IMG/VR virus record: IMGVR_UViG_3300034407_000490
Span: 1 to 25,314 of that record
Length of the DNA: 25,314 nt
From: a virus
Direction: 5' to 3' (one strand)
Below are positions 78 to 24,950 of this stretch, piece by piece; the first letter of the stretch is position 1; each line of letters starts with the position of its first letter. Both the position numbers and the translations under genes were made by a program. The notes under the pieces were generated by a model, which saw only the letters and a list, made by a program, of their open reading frames with translations, had not been told where the DNA came from and did no database searches.

Positions 78-154
78 TGTAACATCTAAAATAGGTTGAC
101 AACACTTCAGACATGTTGTATACTAATAACATAAACGAAAACATAACGGGTTCA
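78..154. repeat. 77-base direct repeat closing the contig (copy 1)
   Basis: Bases 78-154 are identical to 25238-25314, the last 77 bases of the window. The repeat carries a sigma70 promoter. Because the second copy ends exactly at the window end and is 77 bases long, a common assembler k-mer size, I read this as the overlap of a circular assembly path rather than a biological terminal repeat. The circle would be 25,160 bp. Confidence 0.85.
96..124 (+). promoter_or_regulatory. Consensus sigma70 promoter with inverted repeat
   Basis: TTGACA at 96-101 and TATACT at 119-124 are separated by 17 bases. An inverted repeat, ACAACA (99-104) and TGTTGT (114-119), spans the spacer and could be an operator. 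Transcription should start near 131. No ORF starts before the hairpin at 170-196, so the immediate product appears to be a short RNA or an attenuated leader of the 242 operon. Confidence 0.75.
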
Positions 155-927: not shown

Positions 928-1136
928 TAGAGTTTGATCCGTACCAGGAACTATTAGATCAAAGAGACATGATTGAAGAACTGGTAGCGCATGTTAATCA
1001 CCTAATAGTAAACAACAACAAACTCACTGATAAACTTGAATACATTACAAGTGAATTTAACATAGTGACTTCGTTAATAAAGAACCATCAGGAACGTTTA
1101 CATGATCTTGAGGATATGATTTATGATTCTGAGTGA
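924..1136 (+). CDS. Small coiled-coil protein upstream of TerL
   Basis: This 70-residue acidic protein has heptad-like spacing of leucine, isoleucine and valine across most of its length, indicating a coiled coil. There is no recognisable family. It starts by ATGA overlap with the upstream gene and overlaps the terminase start by 14 bases, so it belongs to the packaging operon. It could be a terminase accessory or oligomerisation factor; nothing in the sequence proves this. Confidence 0.65.
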   Translation: MIEFDPYQELLDQRDMIEELVAHVNHLIVNNNKLTDKLEYITSEFNIVTSLIKNHQERLHDLEDMIYDSE

Positions 1137-2355
1137 AGTGCAAAGACAAGTAGCAGATGACAAGCATAGATTCAAAGTGGTCTGTGCGGGACGCCGTTGG
1201 GGCAAAACATATTTGAGCCTGCGTGAAATCTGTTACCATGCACGACAACCCAATAAAAATATATTCTATATTACTACAAGTTATAGAGCAGCTAAAATGA
1301 TTATGTGGAAGCCTCTAAAAACACGGTTACTAGAACTTAAATGGGCCAAGAAGATTAACGAAAGTGAATTGCAAATAACACTTAAAAACAATACTACAAT
1401 AAGTCTTAAAGGATCAGAAGATCCAGACCGTATACGTGGTATTAGTGCAAGTTATATTGTAATTGATGAAGCTGCTGATTGTGACCTTGATGCACTATGG
1501 GGAGAAGTTTGTCGTCCTGCACTTGCTGACCAAGAAGGCGGTGCAATGTTTATTGGAACACCCAAAGGCAAATCAAATCCATTTTATGACCTATGGTTAC
1601 AAGGAGAACGTGAACCTGATCAATGGGCCAGTTGGCAGTTTACTACTATTAGCGGCGGCAGAGTAAGCGCACGAGAACTTGAAGCAGCCAAACAAGATAT
1701 GAGTGCAAGTCAGTATGCACAAGAATTTTTAGCAGACTGGACAACAAGTCAGAACCTTGTGGCTTGGGAGTTTACACGTGAAGGTAATATTCAAGAAGCA
1801 CCAGACGACGATGTTAGTGTGCTAGAAGTAGGATGTGACTTTAACGTATCGCCAATTGCAGCAAGTGTTATGGTGCGTAGAGGCGATGACTTATATGCCA
1901 TTGATGAGGTGGTGTTGTACAATAGCAACACACAAGAACTTGCACAAGAACTACGCAATAGATATCCACGCAGTCGCATTACAGTCTATCCTGACCCTGC
2001 TGGCAGTGCTAGAAAAACAAGTTCAAATGGACAAACTGACCACACTATATTAGAGAACGCAGGATTTACAGTTAAAGCACCAAGACGACACGACCCAGTA
2101 AGAGACAGGGTAAATGCCAGTAACGCACGTTTAAAGACGGCTGACGGCGTTAGACATGCATTTATCAGTAAAAAGTGTAAATATACAATAGAATGTCTAG
2201 AGAAACACAGTTTCAAAAAGGGAACGCAGATACCAGACAAAGGGGAGTGGGATCACATGTTTGATGCATGGTCGTATGCTATTGCATATATGTTCCCCCT
2301 GAGAAAAGCAACGCCAACACCGCCGCCACAGCGCTGGGGCACCAAAACATACTAG
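1123..2355 (+). CDS. terL: Terminase large subunit
   Basis: TerL is the ATP-driven motor and nuclease that packages DNA through the portal. Of 410 residues, the N-terminal ATPase shows Walker A GRRWGKT (23-29) and Walker B IVIDEA (112-117). The C-terminal RNase H-like nuclease has candidate acidic residues D239 (in GCDFNVSP), D291 (in YPDPAG) and D377/D381 (in WDHMFDAW). The protein is compact for a TerL but both domains are complete. GAGG at 1110-1113, nine bases before ATG 1123, supports this start. The portal follows after nine bases. The small subunit is probably the separate gene at 23234. Confidence 0.95.
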   Translation: MILSEVQRQVADDKHRFKVVCAGRRWGKTYLSLREICYHARQPNKNIFYITTSYRAAKMIMWKPLKTRLLELKWAKKINESELQITLKNNTTISLKGSEDPDRIRGISASYIVIDEAADCDLDALWGEVCRPALADQEGGAMFIGTPKGKSNPFYDLWLQGEREPDQWASWQFTTISGGRVSARELEAAKQDMSASQYAQEFLADWTTSQNLVAWEFTREGNIQEAPDDDVSVLEVGCDFNVSPIAASVMVRRGDDLYAIDEVVLYNSNTQELAQELRNRYPRSRITVYPDPAGSARKTSSNGQTDHTILENAGFTVKAPRRHDPVRDRVNASNARLKTADGVRHAFISKKCKYTIECLEKHSFKKGTQIPDKGEWDHMFDAWSYAIAYMFPLRKATPTPPPQRWGTKTY

Positions 2356-21840: not shown

Positions 21841-22060
21841 CTCTAAACAGTCATTAAATCTTAAACCATTGCTTAACCACGAAACTAACGCATTGCAATG
21901 CACCGCAAACGCATGGCTTCTAATTTCTTGTTGTATACACCACCTAAAGTATCGTTGTAGCAGATTGTAAAACTTGTGCAATTTAAGAGCCATTTTAGAC
22001 TTGTAATACACTAAAGTAATTTAATGTTATTATTATTAATATACGTGGCATTACAATCAC
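21841..22060. other. Gene-poor spacer before minus-strand gene
   Basis: No convincing gene is present. A 61-codon minus-strand frame (21826-22011) lacks a ribosome site. The spacer contains one copy (21999-22014) of a 16-base inverted repeat whose partner lies at 23170-23185, beyond the minus-strand gene, and an AT-rich run at 22020-22045. Confidence 0.5.
21999..22014 (+). repeat. 16-base inverted repeat, left copy
   Basis: ACTTGTAATACACTAA here is the exact reverse complement of 23170-23185. The two copies flank the single minus-strand gene. The right copy lies in that gene's sigma70 promoter. Confidence 0.75.
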
Positions 22061-23128
22061 TTAGTAGTCAGTTCGTTCAACATAATCATCCACATGTCTC
22101 TCAAATACTTCGTAGTCAAACTCAATCCAATATCCAGTCTGTCGTTCAATAAGCAGTTGAAGTTCTCTCACAGATATTGACTGAGTACTTCTCCAACCAT
22201 CATGCTCGTGAAAGTACTGAATACCTTGTTTGTCTAAGAACTTATGAACCACACGCATTACTTTTAATTCTTCTTGGAAGTATATGCCCCACTTGGTTCT
22301 ACTATTCATAAGACTCAACTGTTGATCTTGTTTGATAGCATCCCACAGTTTCTTGATATCTTTAGCAAGGTCTACTGCAAACCACTGATCTTGTTGTAGG
22401 CGATTGTGTAGTATCCAACGTCCACCCAACTGATCCAGTATTGAATTACGTGCACCAAATCTTGCGCCAGCAAACTTAGCAGTGATCAATTGCTTGACTA
22501 CTTTAGCATCAACTTCCAATAGATTAGCAAGGCGTTGACGATGATAGTCTTTGTCTTTGAGATAGTCTTCAATTACTGTTACAGGGCGTGTAAGTCCACT
22601 GCGTTTGGCCAATTGTACAAGTATAGTTGGCGAGGCTGTTTGAATATCATACTCGTGTATGTAACCATAATTTGCAAACAGGGGTTTTCTTATTTCAGTT
22701 GCAATGTTTTGAATGTCATTCCACATGCGACTGCTTTTGGTTTTGTATTCAAACACGCCACTTTCAATAGTAGCACCATGTAGTGCGTCAACTGCACTTA
22801 ACTTAGCATCCAATACTTGTGTAGTATTAGGTGTAGAATTTGTAAGTTTACCCAACATACAGCCTAGTGTGATATATCCATCTTGATTGAGCAAATACTT
22901 CTTTGCTGTGCCCAACTGTGCATTGTAATAGTGACAGTCTATAATTAGTAATTGTTCTCGCAGCCATTTGCTTAGGGGGTTTTGTTGTTGACCAAACCAA
23001 ACGTCAATTTGTCGTGTGCTCCACTGTCTTGCTCGTGTGGTGCTTAGATTTGCACTTGAATAGCGCCATGCACTTTCCAAACGTCTTAGGGTCCTTGGAT
23101 CTTTAAGATTAGGATTATATTTTGCCAT
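22061..23128 (-). CDS. Putative replication protein with polymerase-like palm motifs
   Basis: This 355-residue protein is encoded alone on the minus strand. I see a possible palm-domain series: motif A-like YDIQTASPTI (160-169, D161), a motif B-like segment K209 to G225 (KVVKQLITAKFAGARFG), and motif C-like FHEHDGW (306-312, D310). Their order and the final His-Asp pair resemble single-subunit polymerases of the Pol A/T7 RNAP class, but the protein is far smaller. A primase or origin-specific polymerase is possible. AAGGAG supports the start. It has a consensus sigma70 promoter and a late-like motif. It is the only replication candidate in the window, and the function is inferred. Confidence 0.6.
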   Translation of the reverse strand: MAKYNPNLKDPRTLRRLESAWRYSSANLSTTRARQWSTRQIDVWFGQQQNPLSKWLREQLLIIDCHYYNAQLGTAKKYLLNQDGYITLGCMLGKLTNSTPNTTQVLDAKLSAVDALHGATIESGVFEYKTKSSRMWNDIQNIATEIRKPLFANYGYIHEYDIQTASPTILVQLAKRSGLTRPVTVIEDYLKDKDYHRQRLANLLEVDAKVVKQLITAKFAGARFGARNSILDQLGGRWILHNRLQQDQWFAVDLAKDIKKLWDAIKQDQQLSLMNSRTKWGIYFQEELKVMRVVHKFLDKQGIQYFHEHDGWRSTQSISVRELQLLIERQTGYWIEFDYEVFERHVDDYVERTDY

Positions 23129-23148
23129 GTTATTTCTCCTTATACTGT

Positions 23149-23155
23149 TATTTAT
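23149..23155 (-). promoter_or_regulatory. T4-type late-like motif ATAAATA on minus strand
   Basis: On the minus strand ATAAATA is followed by ACAGT and predicted +1 at 23143, giving a 15-base leader with AAGGAG. The extended string TAAATAACAGTAT matches those at 231 and 23223, supporting a shared element. Confidence 0.45.
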
Positions 23156-23166
23156 CTATATACTGT

Positions 23167-23195
23167 ATATTAGTGTATTACAAGTGATTTGTCAA
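23167..23195 (-). promoter_or_regulatory. Consensus sigma70 promoter for minus-strand gene
   Basis: On the minus strand TTGACA (23195-23190) and TAATAT (23172-23167) are separated by 17 bases. The right copy of the 16-base inverted repeat covers most of the spacer and half of the -10 element, suggesting an operator. Confidence 0.75.
23170..23185 (-). repeat. 16-base inverted repeat, right copy
   Basis: This is the reverse complement of 21999-22014. It overlaps the spacer and -10 of the sigma70 promoter of the minus-strand gene, so an operator role is plausible for this copy. Confidence 0.75.
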
Positions 23196-23221: not shown

Positions 23222-23228
23222 CTAAATA
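23222..23228 (+). promoter_or_regulatory. T4-type late promoter motif CTAAATA, leaderless start
   Basis: CTAAATA, five bases (ACAGT), then ATG at 23234. Predicted +1 is the A of ATG. The 17-base string CTAAATAACAGTATGAA is identical to that at 230-246. Confidence 0.65.
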
Positions 23229-23233
23229 ACAGT

Positions 23234-23665
23234 ATGAAAACAGAACAACCTAAAAAACGTGGTCCCAAACCCAAACAGTTGATTGAAGCAACTATTATTG
23301 GCAAACCTGTTGGTCGTGACAATACAGTAGTTCCACCAGATCAAGTTGAAGAACTTGCTGCCCTAGGATGCAACAACAAAGAGATTGCAAACTTCTTTGG
23401 CGTTACAGAAGATGCTATTAGTAGAAACTTCGCCGTAGAACTTACAAAAGGCAAAGAGATTATGAAGATTAAATTGCGTAGAGCAATGTTTCATAATGCT
23501 TGCTCAAGTATGAATGCTGCGGTGCAGATCTTCCTTGCTAAAAACATATTGGGTATGAGTTCAGAACCAATTGACAGTGAAGCCAATGAGCCATTACCGT
23601 GGGTTGAAGGTAACACTGTAGAGATAACAAACTATGATGAGGACTTACATAATGAAGAAGATTAA
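23234..23665 (+). CDS. Terminase small subunit candidate
   Basis: This protein has 143 residues. A basic N-terminus (KKRGPKPK) is followed by a helix-turn-helix at about 38-66 (CNNKEIANFFGVTEDAISRN). The segment FHNACSSMNAAVQIFLAKNI (about 86-105) then LGMSSE is the usual C-terminal part of small terminases in many tailed phages. Small terminases recognise the packaging site and recruit TerL. In the circle it lies about 3 kb upstream of TerL. It has no Shine-Dalgarno sequence and the predicted transcript is leaderless. A transcription regulator with the same fold is a less likely alternative. Confidence 0.78.
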   Translation: MKTEQPKKRGPKPKQLIEATIIGKPVGRDNTVVPPDQVEELAALGCNNKEIANFFGVTEDAISRNFAVELTKGKEIMKIKLRRAMFHNACSSMNAAVQIFLAKNILGMSSEPIDSEANEPLPWVEGNTVEITNYDEDLHNEED

Positions 23666-23900: not shown

Positions 23901-24395
23901 ATGATAAAGAAACCCTATGAACAACAACTTAAAAATATTAACGATTGGGTAGAAATCGTTAATTATTATTGGATCCAATTAGACGGCGTACTTCATGCCA
24001 ATACAGAATTTTGGAACAACACACTACACGCAATGTCGCCAGAAGATTGGTGGGATTGGATTGAAATAGCACCTGCACTTAAAGCACAACACCGCGACGA
24101 ATGGCAGCGACACAATTTAGTACACGATACAAAAGCAATTGAAAAGAAACTAATGATGGGGAAACCTGTTGTTAAGAAAATGCGTCCAGAAAGTAATCGT
24201 GATGCATTCCGCACACTAATGAAAATTAAAGACTTCATTAATGATATCAACGGTACACCTACAGTACAGTTTAGTAAAGCTACTCCCAAACGAGGCACAA
24301 CTGCTGCTAAAGAATTAACAAAACAAAAACAAACAGAAATACTTAACAGCGTTACATCTTTTGAGAAACTATTTGAGATTAAAGACAATGACTAA
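23901..24395 (+). CDS. Hypothetical early protein
   Basis: This protein has 164 residues with no recognised family. The N-terminal half is rich in tryptophan and aromatic residues (WVEIVNYYWIQLDG, EDWWDWIEIAP), the C-terminal half basic and helical. It has a consensus sigma70 promoter and AAGGAAGAG ribosome site, is first in a three-gene operon, and overlaps the next gene by ATGA-type coupling. An early protein acting on host or rival phage is possible but unproven. Confidence 0.65.
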   Translation: MIKKPYEQQLKNINDWVEIVNYYWIQLDGVLHANTEFWNNTLHAMSPEDWWDWIEIAPALKAQHRDEWQRHNLVHDTKAIEKKLMMGKPVVKKMRPESNRDAFRTLMKIKDFINDINGTPTVQFSKATPKRGTTAAKELTKQKQTEILNSVTSFEKLFEIKDND

Positions 24396-24543
24396 AGAAA
24401 CCCCAACCAAGATTGAAATAAATGAAGGTGAAGCATATGTGCGTTATGAAGGCGTAACATATCGTGTTAAACTCAGTTACTTCAAACTAGAAGCAACACC
24501 TAACTCAAAAGAAATAGAGATAGAAGGTTACGTAGTCAAGTGA
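24388..24543 (+). CDS. Small hypothetical protein
   Basis: This protein has 51 residues from ATG 24388, which overlaps the end of the preceding gene; an upstream in-frame ATG is inside that gene and less likely. It is a short beta-rich protein (EAYVRYEGVTYRVKLSYFKL). Its stop overlaps the GTG start of the nuclease gene (GTGA). Function unknown. Confidence 0.55.
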   Translation: MTKETPTKIEINEGEAYVRYEGVTYRVKLSYFKLEATPNSKEIEIEGYVVK

Positions 24544-24950
24544 CTTGGATATACAACAACAGCCCTTTCACAGTTGCCCCTGAAGACTGTGAAGGGTTTG
24601 TGTATGTGATACAAAATCCATTTACTAAAAGATATTACATTGGACAGAAACGTTTCTGGAGTGTAAAGAAACTGCCGCCACTCAAAGGCAAAGTAAACAA
24701 GCGTCATAAGACTGTAGAAACAAACTGGAAAGACTATTGGGGCAGTTCAGACGCATTGCAACTTGCACTAGAGGCAGAAGGTAAACACACCTACAAAAGG
24801 ATCATACTTAAACTGTGCAAGACCAAAGGTGATCTAAACTATGAAGAAACAAGACTGCAATTTGAATACAATGTACTGCGTGACCCTTTAAGTTTTAACG
24901 GCATCATTAACTGCAAAATACACCGTAGTCATTTGTCTAATAACAATTGA
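24540..24950 (+). CDS. SegE-like GIY-YIG endonuclease
   Basis: This 136-residue protein starts at GTG 24540 overlapping the previous stop. Residues GFVYVI (19-24) and YYIGQK (32-37) form the GIY-YIG core, followed by basic residues, NWKDYWGSS (62-70) and a conserved acidic region (YEETRLQFEY, 101-110) that would supply the metal-binding glutamate. This is the layout of SegE-type free-standing endonucleases common in T4-like phages. It is transcribed from a sigma70 promoter, so likely early. Role could be homing or cutting a competing phage genome. Confidence 0.75.
   Translation: MTWIYNNSPFTVAPEDCEGFVYVIQNPFTKRYYIGQKRFWSVKKLPPLKGKVNKRHKTVETNWKDYWGSSDALQLALEAEGKHTYKRIILKLCKTKGDLNYEETRLQFEYNVLRDPLSFNGIINCKIHRSHLSNNN

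Follow-up and report, generated by a model that had tools for sequence, protein, structure and literature searches.

The polymerase gene and its surroundings

The window analysed here, 25,314 bp in length, is an entire IMG/VR record, and on its minus strand (positions 22,061 to 23,128) lies a gene for a TV-Pol-like superfamily-A polymerase of 355 aa. The first-pass annotation had described this open reading frame as bearing three polymerase-like motifs, and these are present as described, namely YDIQTASPTI with D161, KVVKQLITAKFAGARFG with K212 and FHEHDGW with D310, the numbering of both aspartates being correct. Since the last 77 nucleotides of the contig (25,238 to 25,314, plus strand) are identical to bases 78 to 154 (plus strand), the assembly is probably a complete genome of about 25.16 kb, either circular or terminally redundant; bases 1 to 77 do not fit a circle, and a repeat common to other DNA could mimic circularity.

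The divergent neighbour of the polymerase is a small terminase-like gene (23,234 to 23,665, plus strand), and the large terminase (1,123 to 2,355, plus strand) is the sole Walker-A protein in the window. No helicase, primase or second polymerase was found in the window by family scans of accessory genes, by searches with DnaB_C, Helicase_C and D5_N, or by the Walker-A scan. The earlier claim that the polymerase is the only replication gene is thus borne out, in that these scans support it as the sole recognisable replication enzyme of an apparently complete circular genome. Near the terminase region there are also a SegE-type GIY-YIG endonuclease and two HNH-like genes (window 24,540 to 24,950 and 242 to 927).

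Upstream of the polymerase gene, a sigma-70-like promoter match (TTGACA-17-TAATAT, 10/12) is located at 23,167 to 23,195 on the minus strand, such matches being no more numerous in the promoter region than in shuffled sequence. A perfect 16-nt inverted repeat flanks the gene, with its left arm at 21,999 to 22,014 (plus strand) and its right arm at 23,170 to 23,185 (minus strand), within the spacer of the promoter. Nearly all other genes in the window run in the opposite direction to the polymerase gene, and it is possible that the segment is an inverted or invertible cassette. As a family-wide element the inverted repeat was rejected, for no relative has it.

A family of minimal polymerases within the TV-Pol class

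Searches with the window protein as a single sequence returned no relative, whether in Pfam, PHROGs and PDB or by tblastn against phages and plasmids. Motif A, written as a degenerate DNA pattern (YDIxxAxPT[IL]L), hit 12 viral contigs, ten or eleven of them with real homologues, and the alignment built from these matches brought the total in IMG/VR to 25 homologues. The resulting family alignment, A2, has 26 members, which are 28-53% identical to the window protein. None of them matches Pfam DNA_pol_A (PF00476), and the family is missing from Pfam, PHROGs and NCBIfam annotation; its recognition puts a name to a protein left unannotated by all three. Two database matches were taken as chance, a weak one to phrog_31446 (0.012) and one to NCBIfam DpdB (0.0016), far under the DpdB cut-off. 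The same motif A pattern found no relative in GTDB contigs, where the matches L091 and L092 were due to chance, and nothing was found with a virophage-type motif pattern.

D161 (22,646 to 22,648, minus strand, as for all residues below) is kept in 26/26 rows of the alignment and D310 (22,199 to 22,201) in 25/25 rows covering that column, so that, with 25 homologues at hand, the open reading frame is more than a chance one. Motif A itself (Y160 to L170) served as search bait, and invariance there is biased and means little. The residues R134, Q140, R197, K212, H309 and D310 are invariant as well, and none of them was in the search pattern; R134 (22,727 to 22,729) is found in 26/26 rows, and R197 (22,538 to 22,540) and K212 (22,493 to 22,495) are the invariant arginine of the fingers and the motif B lysine, respectively. 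The K-x-x-K that had been proposed as motif B holds in its second lysine, K212, and is not conserved as an element. Nor does the family alignment show a conserved arginine four residues before K212, where the RxxxK fingers motif of the literature has one; it is missing there, too, from the sampled TV-Pols when these are aligned at the equivalent lysine.

The AlphaFold2 model made with the A2 alignment is of high confidence (mean pLDDT 91.5, pTM 0.85). Its N-terminal region (residues 1 to 80; 22,889 to 23,128, minus strand) has a helix-helix-helix-strand-strand order resembling a winged helix-turn-helix, is weakly similar to its counterpart in bacterial TV-Pols, and possibly binds DNA or an origin. 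Two helices follow (82 to 91 and 102 to 123), a candidate thumb pair in the model, and then a predicted beta-hairpin (strands 129 to 131 and 134 to 136) which precedes the palm and presents R134, the template-contacting arginine of TV-Pols. D161 is placed at the end of strand 158 to 162; after this first palm strand the modelled helices 165 to 219 form the helical fingers bearing R197 and K212 (the latter within helix 208 to 219), and two long helices lead to a hairpin (305 to 314) with D310 in its turn, a helix and a last strand. The order of elements is thumb, fingers and palm, as in TV-Pols, and from this topology D161 and D310 would be expected to lie side by side. No exonuclease domain is seen in the model and none would fit in 355 aa, in agreement with the first-pass annotation.

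Against the PDB, Foldseek ranked Klenow, Taq, T7 DNA polymerase, pol gamma and pol theta at the top, with a modest best E value of 2.4e-3 (prob 1.00); against BFVD, uncultured phage proteins came first (3e-10), and the matches included the replication proteins of Zamilon and of the Qinghai Lake virophage, which are primase-polymerases. The conserved aspartates, together with a confident right-hand model best matched by Klenow, Taq and T7 DNA polymerase, uphold the palm-type polymerase that had been suggested from the sequence.

In principle such a fold might also belong to a single-subunit RNA polymerase transcribing the genes of the phage, like those of T7 and N4, given that T7-like RNA polymerases are members of superfamily A. 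Pol I has a glutamate five residues after the motif A aspartate. All rows of the family alignment have alanine or serine at this position, hence ribonucleotides may be accepted. In addition, the 13-mer TAAATAACAGTAT occurs in the window exactly three times (231 to 243; 23,142 to 23,154, minus strand; 23,223 to 23,235), each time where a transcription unit starts, namely those of the ORF at 242, the polymerase and the small terminase. Yet no family-wide phage promoter was found: unlike what T7-type promoters would lead one to expect, 15/17 fetched relatives lack any 11-mer that occurs three times upstream of genes, and the other two (G017 and G024) have local sets only. Moreover, the fold search ranks DNA polymerases above RNA polymerases, and 355 aa are too few to accommodate the N-terminal promoter-binding domain of T7 RNA polymerase. 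A role in transcription is therefore very unlikely.

TV-Pols are a minimal class of superfamily-A polymerases, defined in 2008 by Iyer, Abhiman and Aravind (PMC2579912). A profile-profile comparison, which the first-pass annotation had proposed, ties the family to them: when A2 was aligned by hhalign with four TV-Pols (that of Ma-LMM01 and those of three plasmids), the match had a probability of 98.7 and E=4e-16 and paired R134, D161, R197, K212 and D310. The A2 HMM also retrieved TV-Pol-like proteins in 3/398 genomes of one bacterial phylum, two of them strongly (1e-23 and 8e-21, proteins of about 500 aa). Like the known TV-Pols (Ma-LMM01 MAP_030, Sputnik V13 and the Polaromonas plasmid proteins), the window protein has a minimal superfamily-A core with no exonuclease, an arginine-bearing beta-hairpin, the motif A aspartate, the fingers lysine and an HDG motif C. 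It differs from them in being smaller (355 aa versus 400-600), in its motif A, which in the family reads YDIxxA[AS]PT and in most sampled TV-Pols YDxxxCH, in its setting, the family being found in small tailed-phage genomes, and in having no D5 helicase fused or encoded, whereas known TV-Pols are usually helicase-linked. By its palm, its arginine hairpin and its profile similarity, the family is a previously undescribed subfamily of the known TV-Pol class. The "new minimal family" of the earlier annotation was accordingly right as to novelty at the level of a subfamily, while the minimal class itself had already been described.

More distant relationships are less distinct. With DNA polymerase I and T7 DNA polymerase the window protein has in common the palm-fingers-thumb fold, as opposed to their 3'-5' or 5'-3' exonucleases, which it lacks, and the kinship in sequence is marginal (A2 versus Pol I by hhalign: 0.037 alone, which is insignificant, and 7e-4 with TV-Pols added). 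The divPolA2 proteins of barbaviruses and Vibrio phages are also exonuclease-less, PolA-like phage proteins of similar size (430 aa), with a similar GR..QN....R...YD order; their profile match to the family is not significant (by hhalign, an E value of 0.044 alone and of 0.0011 when TV-Pols are added). Barbaviruses have in addition a regular PolB, and genomes of 80-85 kb (PMC11348598). As for the Polaromonas plasmids pH8NP1 and pW9NP1 (L127 and L128), they are small, their TV-Pols are annotated as Clp-domain or hypothetical proteins, and on one of the two RepA adjoins the TV-Pol.

The family genomes and probable gene exchange

Besides the window, 17 family contigs were read from end to end, which makes 18 genomes, all picked for having the polymerase. 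Family phages are of roughly 24-38 kb. Several contigs, with exact repeats of 44-126 nt at or close to their two ends, are probably complete. The genomes span at least two unrelated structural modules, and the only gene cluster common to all 18 is that of the polymerase. A tree of 16 polymerases requires four changes of structural module, a single origin being recovered in no bootstrap tree; because the branching of the polymerases is at odds with the capsid and structural modules, the gene has probably been exchanged between phages.

Among the 25 commonest PHROG families, the matches of the family's accessory genes are to HNH and GIY-YIG nucleases, methyltransferases and ParB-like proteins, and not to replication enzymes. 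Searches with DnaB_C, Helicase_C and D5_N returned nothing in the 18 contigs (one of the searches covering most of them), leaving DnaB, SF1/2 and D5 helicases undetected there. Two further phages (G003 and G014; L154-L157), with homologous large terminases and apparently circular genomes of 26-28 kb, lack the polymerase of the family and have no recognisable polymerase, helicase or primase. Since these terminase relatives do without it, the polymerase is not essential to that phage type, where it may have an accessory role.

Could the gene then stand outside phage replication altogether, as an accessory or mobile-cassette polymerase (for repair or translesion synthesis, or as a selfish element) in phages copied wholly by host enzymes? 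The polymerase-less relatives of similar size, the discordance between the polymerase tree and the structural modules, and the antisense gene of the window, framed by its inverted repeat, would all suit such a role, and the divPolA2 phage PolAs are themselves thought to be accessory (PMC11348598). Nevertheless, no other polymerase was recognised in the family genomes by the accessory-gene scans, and most relatives carry the gene in the same direction as their other genes, making this account quite unlikely.

A possible role in starting phage DNA synthesis

The reading that I favour, with moderate confidence, is that of a primase-polymerase, i.e. an exonuclease-less TV-Pol with N-terminal DNA binding which starts phage DNA synthesis with the help of the host helicase and replicase. 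The N-terminal winged-helix-like region would probably bind DNA near the phage origin; the palm, with D161, D310 and two metal ions, and the fingers, with R197 and K212, would synthesise a short strand on the opened template and lengthen it; the host DnaB helicase and Pol III would take care of unwinding and bulk synthesis. In some relatives an OB-fold protein may act as priming partner. I infer in this way nucleotide polymerisation, primer synthesis, use of an origin and of the host helicase, and, in some relatives, the OB-fold partner. The conservation of R134, D161, R197, K212 and D310, the fold, the profile kinship with TV-Pols and the precedent of CcPol-MP argue for a primase-polymerase, and the suggestion of a primase or origin-dedicated polymerase in the first-pass annotation is a plausible one. 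Against it count the modest E value of the PDB matches, the polymerase-less terminase relatives, the helicase that was not found in the genomes searched, the non-conserved arginine of RxxxK, and the OB-fold partner, which is absent from the window and elsewhere weakly matched (E 0.06 or worse).

TV-Pols are predicted prim-pols, tied to priming by their genomic context (PMC2579912), and CcPol was the only one to have been assayed at the time of the eLife 2020 paper. CcPol primes DNA together with its partner MP, D169 and D324 being essential, and when MP is left out it performs primer extension only (PMC7581432); MP is a predicted OB fold (PMC10061031). The CcPol-MP (PolA-SSB) primases of SCCmec and other Bacillota elements resemble the present case in being built on a small A-family polymerase, shown (CcPol) or proposed to be a primase, and in CcPol the two catalytic aspartates are about 150 residues apart, as in the window protein. 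Their elements differ in having a D5- or DUF927-type helicase and recombinases, of which, as of an OB-fold partner, the window is devoid.

In five relatives a protein of 123-150 aa adjoins the polymerase. Its model (pLDDT 82.6) has among its leading Foldseek matches the OB-fold ssDNA-binding proteins PrgE, RPA70 and SSBs, all of them weak (E 0.06-0.5), and it is predicted to be an OB-fold-like protein resembling the MP of CcPol-MP. The window yielded no MP-like OB-fold protein. Along this line, the enzyme might be a primer-dependent DNA polymerase only, one that extends host-made primers or fills in or repairs DNA and starts no strands; so behaves CcPol without MP, and the fold is closest to DNA polymerase I and T7 DNA polymerase. 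The contextual link of TV-Pols to priming stands against this, as does the modelled winged-helix-like N terminus, which suggests a site-binding initiator, and a purely primer-dependent enzyme is on balance unlikely.

A bolder form of the primase-polymerase reading would have one small prim-pol, handed on among unrelated tailed phages, as the whole of the phage-encoded replication system: the origin would be recognised by the N-terminal winged helix, priming and extension would be carried out alone or with a small OB-fold partner, and host DnaB would be recruited with neither a phage helicase nor a loader. This is put forward tentatively, and is rather doubtful. A family of this kind, in which no helicase was recognised and whose phages measure roughly 24-38 kb, would show what one minimal A-family polymerase can do at an origin, whether an OB-fold partner is dispensable for priming by such polymerases, and by what means small phages lacking known replication genes are copied.

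Two further observations concern the neighbours of the polymerase. In seven genomes (G033, G027, G018, G026, G031, G034 and G035) zinc-ribbon-like proteins of 55-107 aa, with a conserved H-x(n)-C-x2-C/H pattern, adjoin the polymerase or lie near it. Furthermore, unrelated proteins encoded near polymerase or terminase genes have in common an acidic tail with F-x-x-L-F (window 23,901 to 24,392; L107, 1,657 to 2,043; L101, 4,557 to 5,663), which, judged from its sequence, is possibly a docking peptide.
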